Assembly: GCA_001789205.1 (NCBI GenBank)
Contig: MFYT01000100.1
Span: 1-43,641, forward strand
Source of the DNA: Candidatus Raymondbacteria bacterium RIFOXYA2_FULL_49_16
Lineage (GTDB): Bacteria > Fibrobacterota > OXYB2-FULL-49-7 > XYB2-FULL-49-35
DNA: 43,641 nucleotides
Direction: 5' to 3'
Shown here piece after piece: positions 41,338-43,641 of this stretch (position 1 is its first letter; each line of letters opens with the position of its first letter). Under the pieces are notes generated by a model. The model was not told where the DNA came from, did no database searches, and saw only the letters and a list, made by a program, of their open reading frames with translations. Both the position numbers and the translations under genes were made by a program.

Positions 41338-42108
41338 ATGAAAAAGACCAAGCTTGCAAGCATGATCACAGCCGCAGTTGTTATTCTGGGAGTCAGCTTG
41401 ACGCTGGCAAGCCAAAAAAGCGACAGGATTGAATCATCAGCAAAAAAGTCTTATGTATTCAAGACCTATCTAAAAAACGATGACATCACGATCAAAGTAG
41501 TCAATGACGACATTGTTACTTTAACAGGAACAGTAACCGAATGGTCGCACCGGGCGTTGGCCGAAGAGACTGTCGCGGGTTTTCCGGGAGTTAAGCGCGT
41601 GGACAACAAGCTGAAGGTCAAAGATGAATCGTCCGAGAACTCGGACACGTGGATTGGCATGAAGGTCAAAACCATGCTTTTGTTCCATCAAAACGTGAGC
41701 GGTTTTAACACTGAAGTGCATGTCAGTGACGGCATAGTTACCTTGACCGGAGAAGCAGCCAATGAAGCGCAAAAAGAACTGACAGTTGAATACGTCAAGG
41801 ATGTTGACGGGGTTAAAAACGTCACCAACAATATGACCGTTGAAAAATCCGGGAAAACAACCGTGCAAAAAGCTGGTGATACCATTGACGACGCATCCAT
41901 TACCGCGCAGGTCAAACTCGCCTTGCTGTTTCATCATTCGACCAGCGCCATTAAAACAAACGTTGAGACTAAAAACGGCATAGTCACGGTACGGGGCATT
42001 GCGCAAAATAGTGCTGAAAAGGCCTTGGTTGGCAAACTCGTAAACGATATAAAAGGTGTGAAAGGTTTGATAAATGAGATAACCATTGGCCAGATATCGA
42101 TGGAATAG
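41338..42108 (+). CDS. Periplasmic triple-BON-domain protein (OsmY-like)
   Basis: From the ATG at 41338 (AAGGAGACGAC upstream) the 256-residue product has a signal peptide (about 1-25) and three BON domains. They are at about 37-95 (LKNDDITIKVVNDDIVTLTGTV), 106-170 (TMLLFHQNVSGFNTEVHVSDGIVTLTGEA) and 188-252 (VKLALLFHHSTSAIKTNVETKNGIVTVRGIA), each ending in the G-V-K-x-V/L-x-N motif. BON proteins bind membranes or phospholipids and the OsmY group protects the envelope under stress. It has its own sigma-54 promoter. Confidence 0.93.
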   Translation: MKKTKLASMITAAVVILGVSLTLASQKSDRIESSAKKSYVFKTYLKNDDITIKVVNDDIVTLTGTVTEWSHRALAEETVAGFPGVKRVDNKLKVKDESSENSDTWIGMKVKTMLLFHQNVSGFNTEVHVSDGIVTLTGEAANEAQKELTVEYVKDVDGVKNVTNNMTVEKSGKTTVQKAGDTIDDASITAQVKLALLFHHSTSAIKTNVETKNGIVTVRGIAQNSAEKALVGKLVNDIKGVKGLINEITIGQISME

Positions 42109-42792: not shown

Positions 42793-43641
42793 TCAGCTGT
42801 CTTCGTAACCGCTGAAAGGTATCCATGAGCTTTTTTCAGTGGCTATGACCGTGTTGTAATAATGAAGCATTCCATAATTGGAACAACTGACCGAATACCA
42901 GTCGATACTCCGGTTGTACGCCAGTTCATCCTTGATCTCGTCGAGCATGACCACGCTGGTCTTTTTCTCCGAGTGGATTTTATCAATGATAAAGTTCTGA
43001 TCATCCTGTGTCAGGAACGAATAGACCGGGGCGAGTGCGTGACGGTCAACGATGTCAACCAGGTCCTCAAGAAAAATGTCTATGGAAGATTCAGCCTCAA
43101 TAGCCACTGTCGAGAGCTGGCCGAAAAGCCCCTTCGGCTTCTTTTCTAACGATACCGGATACGTAGTGATTACCGGTATTTTTGTCTTGAAAAACATTTT
43201 AGGCTTATTATCCAGGGACGAAACTTTTGCGGAAAAGGTGCATAGGTACCTGACCAGGCATTTTTCCTTGGATACGGGGGTGATTTTTTCAACAAACTGC
43301 GGGAATTGGAAGTCTACCCGTACCACCGAGGCGTTCAAGGCCTTCAGGTAATCAAGGATGTTCTTCCGCAGGGATTTTGCGCCGATCGTTTCCCGGTGCT
43401 GGTGAAGGATCTGAATAAACGTATCGATCCATTGCGCCTCGAATTCCTGCATGATGCGCGCCTGAATGGAAATGGTGGCGATGGTCGCCTGTCCGTCAGC
43501 ATTGGTTTTGGAAGATACCTTTATGGGAAATGGCAGATTCTCCATGCCAACATCTGCGAGAAATCTCTGTTCGTCATTGTTGAGTAGACCGGGCAGTTGC
43601 CTGCCCAGCCCCTCGCGGAACCGTACGAGCAGCTTTCCCGC
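42793..43641 (-). CDS. FolE2-like (GTP cyclohydrolase IB family) protein lacking the catalytic motifs, 5' end beyond window
   Basis: FolE2 converts GTP to dihydroneopterin triphosphate for folate or queuosine synthesis. The 282 visible residues follow the whole FolE2 fold: DVGMENLPFPIKV, GQATIATISIQARIMQEFEAQWIDTFIQIL, FPQFVEKITPVSKEKCLVRYLCTFSA, VDRHALAPVYSFL. But FolE2's Cys motif (CPCSKxIS) reads YPVSLEKKPK, its GAHNQR reads KGLFGQL, and its ESIHNHxA reads YGMLHYYNT, so most metal/catalytic residues are gone. The frame has no start codon upstream of the Met at 43545, and similarity extends past it to the edge (NNDEQRFLADVGM), so the true start lies outside. A non-catalytic paralogue is likely. 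Confidence 0.75.
   Translation of the reverse strand, partial: AGKLLVRFREGLGRQLPGLLNNDEQRFLADVGMENLPFPIKVSSKTNADGQATIATISIQARIMQEFEAQWIDTFIQILHQHRETIGAKSLRKNILDYLKALNASVVRVDFQFPQFVEKITPVSKEKCLVRYLCTFSAKVSSLDNKPKMFFKTKIPVITTYPVSLEKKPKGLFGQLSTVAIEAESSIDIFLEDLVDIVDRHALAPVYSFLTQDDQNFIIDKIHSEKKTSVVMLDEIKDELAYNRSIDWYSVSCSNYGMLHYYNTVIATEKSSWIPFSGYEDS

Follow-up and report, generated by a model that had tools for sequence, protein, structure and literature searches.

A FolE2-like clade without the cyclohydrolase active-site residues, often found beside acetate kinases and, in a Fibrobacterota genome, apparently split behind its start codon by a group II intron

GTP cyclohydrolase IB (FolE2, GCYH-IB) is the closest described relative of the protein considered here. 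In Neisseria numbering, we take Cys147, His159 and Glu201 to be the metal ligands of this enzyme and Cys149 and Glu216 to be essential residues. The likeness to GCYH-IB (PDB 3d2o, 5k95, 8g6c, 2r5r) is one of fold over almost the full length, at 21-25% identity; unlike GCYH-IB, the clade described below has its metal and catalytic residues replaced throughout, has acetate-kinase neighbours and shares its genomes with a real GTP cyclohydrolase I. The archaeal GTP cyclohydrolase IV, MptA, belongs to the same Pfam family but gives a weak local match (19 bits, far under the model cut-off of 468), and our protein differs from it in being bacterial and in having no conserved ligand set. The genes beside the FolE2-like gene belong to the same family (PF00871) as the acetate/propionate kinase pairs, with the difference that the second gene is here without equivalents of N7, S10 and R241 and falls under the ackA cut-off. 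As to introns, the Azotobacter groEL gene has a group II intron inserted in its stop codon. The introns of the source genome share with it, and with bacterial group II introns at large, domains V and VI, a high copy number and insertion where the gene is little harmed; they appear to differ in inserting directly after start codons and in containing a ribosome site with an ATG from which the 3' exon can be read in frame.

The window is the whole stretch of DNA analysed, the entire contig C100 (43,641 nucleotides) of a Fibrobacterota genome of 5.43 Mb in 112 contigs. A frame on its reverse strand (42793-43641), open up to the contig end, encodes a FolE2-related protein that has the FolE2 fold. 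Residues 27-264 match PF02649 at 90.4 bits (Pfam, E 1.8e-25), and sequence search alone leads to three distinct solved FolE2 sequences (phmmer: NE1163, E 5e-23; GCYH-IB 8g6c, E 6e-21; NGO0387, E 1e-19). With an AlphaFold2 model made from a 13-row alignment (pLDDT 83.6, pTM 0.79), Foldseek ranks 1-11 are all GCYH-IB, 3d2o being found at E 7e-17, and urate oxidases, which have the same tunnelling fold, follow. Against the NCBIfam FolE2 equivalog model the window protein scores 74.1 bits, and members of its clade 60-74 bits, below the cut-off of 215.

The active site is substituted. Relative to NGO0387, the window protein carries the changes C147Y, C149V, H159F, E201Q, E216V and H248Y; P148, S150, Q161, D200, N241 and H246 are retained. 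All three presumed metal ligands and both presumed essential positions are thus changed. Alignments with FolE2 are gapless across the motif regions, both in phmmer and in a profile-profile check, and the alignment with NGO0387 reveals no equivalent Cys/His/Glu set at shifted positions. Comparison of six canonical FolE2 sequences with the 13 members of the family gives the same picture, nearly every member having lost the ligand positions. The column of Cys147 holds Tyr in 10 of the 13, that of His159 Phe in 12, that of Glu201 Gln in 11, that of Glu216 Val in 12 and that of His248 Tyr in 12, and Cys149 is replaced by Val, Gly or other residues. Ser150, Gln161, Ser163, Asp200, Asn241 and His246 are retained in at least 11 of the 13, as are 30 of the 111 columns that are invariant in canonical FolE2.

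Relatives were sought with a degenerate DNA pattern for A-P-[VI]-Y-S-F-L-x-x-[DE]-D in one genome per species (84,980 species). The scan gave 18 matches, 12 of which are family members with E < 1e-83. They come from Acidobacteriota, Lentisphaerota, Kiritimatiellota, Zixiibacteriota, Thermodesulfobacteriota, Calditrichota, Planctomycetota, TA06, Sumerlaeota, Fibrobacterota and two further bacteria, about ten phyla overall. Because the matches were chosen by the single APVYSFL block, the sample is biased and only columns outside that block count as evidence. Identity to the window protein is 68% for the Acidobacteria member and 53-66% for ten others. Within 168 genomes of its own phylum there is one other member, in the same order and about 32-37% identical (G001, Fibrobacteres MAG contig JAEUSG010000297), which forms a long branch in the tree. 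In that tree the 13 members occupy one side of a branch against true FolE2 (support 100/99). A search for related loci with the single window protein found none, and a search of viral contigs with a two-row alignment found no relatives. Identities of 53-68% across phyla imply purifying selection, perhaps alongside horizontal transfer of the family. The sequence-only reading had proposed that the FolE2 fold segments are present, that the metal and catalytic motifs are substituted and that the protein is a conserved but inactive FolE2. The profile and structure matches bear out the first point and the gapless alignment the second, while the third gains support from twelve relatives in one clade with the same losses. 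At the level of sequence, the clade is shown to be a new variant on the FolE2 fold, minus the GTP cyclohydrolase IB active site.

The host genomes contain a canonical enzyme as well. The source genome has a normal FolE1 (251.8 bits), as have seven of the 12 others above the cut-off; four (L288, L290, L291, L301) give no FolE1 match and each has a second, full-scoring FolE2 (311-334 bits) that carries the CPCS motif. In a Calditrichaceae MAG (L292), the only such genome among the 13, neither FolE1 nor a second FolE2 was found. Since 12 of the 13 genomes encode a canonical GTP cyclohydrolase I, the FolE2-like protein is an additional paralog, and this distribution strongly indicates that it would not be a producer of dihydroneopterin triphosphate.

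Acetate-kinase family genes adjoin the FolE2-like gene in seven of the 13 loci (L286, L287, L288, L298, L301, G001 and, via contig C92, the source genome); the other six have no such neighbours, and some of these lie on short contig pieces. Folate genes are not recurrent beside the FolE2-like gene in the 13 loci. The neighbour set consists of a full acetate kinase and a shorter homologue, the piece from L298 showing the shorter one only. Positions N7, S10, R91, H123, D148, H180 and R241, which we take to be catalytic, are kept in all five full kinases. All seven shorter homologues have lost the equivalents of N7, S10 and R241, six of them that of R91 and five that of H180; scores of the shorter gene against the ackA model are 130-150 bits (cut-off 293). 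A second pair in the source genome, an acetate kinase and a homologue without the catalytic residues, lies on C38 (L304, L306) with no FolE2-like gene; the C92 pair is L305 and L307. In L286 and L288 a further acetate kinase is found near the FolE2-like gene, and by eye one of them has also a CoA-ligase-like and one a transketolase-like gene, hinting at a link to acetate or pentose-phosphate metabolism. An active-looking kinase in the company of two proteins that look like pseudoenzymes suggests that the three may form an acyl-kinase complex, regulated or scaffolded. No description of such a kinase, dead-kinase and FolE2-like set was found in the open-access literature, which is not proof of absence.

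The start of the gene probably lies elsewhere. Group II intron sequence accounts for the first 21 residues of the open frame (AGKLLVRFREGLGRQLPGLLN, 43579-43641): the first 63-66 bases of the frame also stand at seven other contig ends, followed there by different sequence, and fuller copies there match Rfam RF00029 (domain V/VI) at 49.7 bits (gathering 40), the window copy being cut in domain V. A longer FolE2 N-terminus as the origin of these codons was ruled out, since the same bases precede unrelated genes. Exon 2 begins at 43578 (AAT), and with a 5' exon ending in ATG the protein starts with M followed by NDEQRFLADVGMENLPFPI. Relatives begin with MTSQKAFLVDVGMRDLPFPI, MADEKRFLVDVGMDGLPFPI and similar sequences; the spliced N-terminus equals theirs, which places the intron precisely at the boundary of the start codon and the second codon. 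The earlier suggestion of similarity reaching upstream beyond the one visible Met therefore holds for about ten codons (NDEQRFLADVG); that the gene is longer than the window shows mostly does not, the rest being group II intron. At the end of C92 an acetate-kinase-like gene is followed by AAAGGAGATTGATTATG and then by GTTAACCTGGC, an intron end common to six other contigs and placed directly after ATG each time. Because the operon order and an intron 5' end are both found there, C92 is taken as the missing upstream part, and the start codon of the FolE2-like gene is probably at its end, behind the acetate-kinase-like gene. The join from C92 through the intron to C100 is spanned by no assembled sequence, and every copy seen of this intron type is cut at a contig end. 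One type of 5' end reads GTGCG (compare GUGYG) and the C92 type reads GTTAA; we infer the pairing of 5' with 3' ends. The genome contains five reverse-transcriptase matches, a genome-wide count rather than one per intron type.

Table 1. Features of the split FolE2-like gene in the window, with the intron ends read in the source genome (a slash marks the exon-intron junction)
Feature	Coordinates	Strand	Basis
Exon 2 of FolE2-like gene, codons 2-262 and stop	42793..43578	-	PF02649 match; N-terminus as in relatives from other phyla; boundary from eight intron copies
Spliced FolE2-like protein: M + NDEQRFLADVGMENLPFPI...FSGYEDS			
Group II intron domain VI and 3' splice end (...CTACTCAAC)	43579..43617	-	Identical at 3' ends of seven other contigs; RF00029 match there
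Group II intron domain V, 3' part, cut by contig end	43618..43641	-	Same as domain V part of RF00029 matches in L015-L021
Tyr140, at column of presumed metal ligand Cys147 of NGO0387	43159..43161	-	Alignment; Y in 10/13 members
Phe152, at column of His159	43123..43125	-	Alignment; F in 12/13 members
Gln194, at column of Glu201	42997..42999	-	Alignment; Q in 11/13 members
Val209, at column of Glu216	42952..42954	-	Alignment; V in 12/13 members
His239, at column of His246, sole active-site histidine kept	42862..42864	-	Alignment; H in 11/13 members
Intron 5' ends ATG/GTTAAC			L143-L145, L157, L185, L224, L307
Intron 5' ends ATGA/GTGCG			L067, L109, L137, L196, L228
Type A intron 3' ends (G000 contig ends)			L065, L084, L087, L094, L099, L100, L128, L150, L204, L241, L256

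Among 204 contig ends that were read there are two intron 5' ends, in seven and five copies, and two 3' ends, in eleven and eight. All 12 of the 5' junctions lie directly behind ATG or ATGA, and a purine-rich stretch resembling a ribosome site precedes each. Of 18 tested 3' ends, 16 lead into a frame without a stop before the stretch ends when read in the phase that splicing would set up, against 1 and 2 for the two remaining phases, and the spliced products resemble normal starts (MKKAFYFILVSC, MKTLLLVASFAAV, MKKMLLFAIMLFAIVSGSFA). The window itself holds an intronless paralog (about 41338-42108, BON-domain-like, MKKTKLASMITAAVVILG) of a gene that type A splits at the start of C92 (MKRPNLGTIIIASVVILG when spliced; L150), and this shows the empty site independently. 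Two further groups of repeated contig ends, L063 and L077 (CACTAGTGCTGTGACC.., CTAGCGTGAGTTTACTATAAAT..), are transposon-end-like and also break the assembly. On C39 (34625-37683, L036) lies a group II intron of about 1 kb with no reverse-transcriptase match between its D1-D4 and domain V matches.

In type A introns the 3' strand of domain VI contains a ribosome site and an ATG that is in frame with the downstream gene. Four diverged variants in three genera show this, even though either 16 or 13 bases separate the ATG from the splice site. This arrangement of domain VI (ribosome site, ATG, ACT CGA C, splice site) is also present in two further genera of the phylum, at L173, L177, L163 (G035) and L164 (G011), where the genes behind it are lipoprotein-like, glycosyltransferase-like and secreted-protein-like. 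In type B, the intron before the FolE2-like gene, the ribosome site and ATG precede domain V and the frame is open through V and VI (copy C84; also G077). A third start-codon group II intron, at the starts of C39 and C48 (L097, L106; ATG followed by AGGAAAGCACTG, giving MRKALIVLGVF), has no internal ribosome site and ATG.

In the mechanism that we propose, the 5' exon ending AAAGGAGATTGATTATG on C92 would be joined to exon 2 in the window, splicing giving MNDEQRFLADVGM... Unspliced RNA could be translated too, from a ribosome site and ATG of the intron; in copy C84 these are in frame through domains V and VI, and we infer the same for the window copy, cut in domain V. More generally, group II introns of this genome and their relatives in other genera of the phylum may target translation starts and carry their own ribosome site and ATG, so that the host gene would be translated spliced or not, with an intron-encoded N-terminal tag if unspliced. 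We hold this generalization, drawn from contig ends and reading frames, at roughly even odds. A doubtful but still credible alternative is that the ribosome site and ATG in the intron arose by chance and are unused, the genes being expressed by splicing only. All copies insert at a start codon, so that the in-frame phase is one event, fixed once per intron lineage, and in shuffled sequence an in-frame ribosome site with ATG arises in 2-7% per variant; moreover, the relatives of type B found in G025 and G049 carry a stop in the frame of the internal ATG, and the third intron on C39 and C48 has no such start at all. Chance would nevertheless have to account for six variants with the feature, and for a type A frame kept at both spacings in three genera.

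For the locus as a whole, the best explanation, with a probability of about 0.6, would be a FolE2-fold clade without a cyclohydrolase site that acts as partner of an acetate-kinase module, its gene in this genome split after the start codon by a group II intron. The protein would most likely be a non-cyclohydrolase, ligand-sensing or scaffolding partner of that acyl-phosphate module. Somewhat improbable, yet with arguments of its own, is an enzyme with an active site rebuilt on the FolE2 fold and a substrate linked to acetyl phosphate or short-chain acids. The strong conservation, the metabolic neighbour genes, the retained H239 and Q154 and the clade's own invariant polar residues (R41, C113, W50, H202, K216), absent or different in canonical FolE2, are consistent with it; however, no pocket or metal site is demonstrable, the interface at which FolE2 sites are located is beyond a monomer model, and the residues that are kept may instead maintain the fold or the contacts between subunits. 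The sequence-only reading had suggested either a new activity, which is still credible, or a regulator binding pterin or GTP, a role for which the analysis gives no support. Such a regulator of folate or queuosine synthesis is unlikely: it would explain a fold common with a GTP enzyme and the one histidine and one glutamine kept in the site region, but the base and metal residues are lost, and what recurs beside the gene is acetate kinases, not folate genes. Decay of a FolE2 gene killed by the intron would fit a gene that is split and has its start codon outside the window, and is highly improbable given 262 codons without stop or frameshift, the 68% identity to the Acidobacteria member, splicing that would recover the N-terminus of the family exactly, and a reading frame without a stop in the intron end as well; conservation of the family across phyla led us to reject a pseudogene. 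Least probable of all is an active GTP cyclohydrolase with relocated ligands, which has only the fold in its favor; it is rejected on the gapless profile-profile alignment over the motifs and the missing shifted ligand set, and the normal GTP cyclohydrolase I in 12 of the 13 genomes also stands against it.

The clade passes the Pfam cut-off, so its members will receive the name GTP cyclohydrolase in annotation, to the detriment of pathway reconstruction. Together, the seemingly active acetate kinase and the two putative pseudoenzymes encoded with it would constitute an undescribed module that is open to testing. The intron finding may be more surprising and more general than the pseudoenzyme; no earlier report of start-codon group II introns was found in the open-access literature, which is no proof that none exists. 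If confirmed, these introns would be self-splicing elements that live inside genes without depending on splicing, and the competition between translation and splicing in a bacterial intron would become directly testable.
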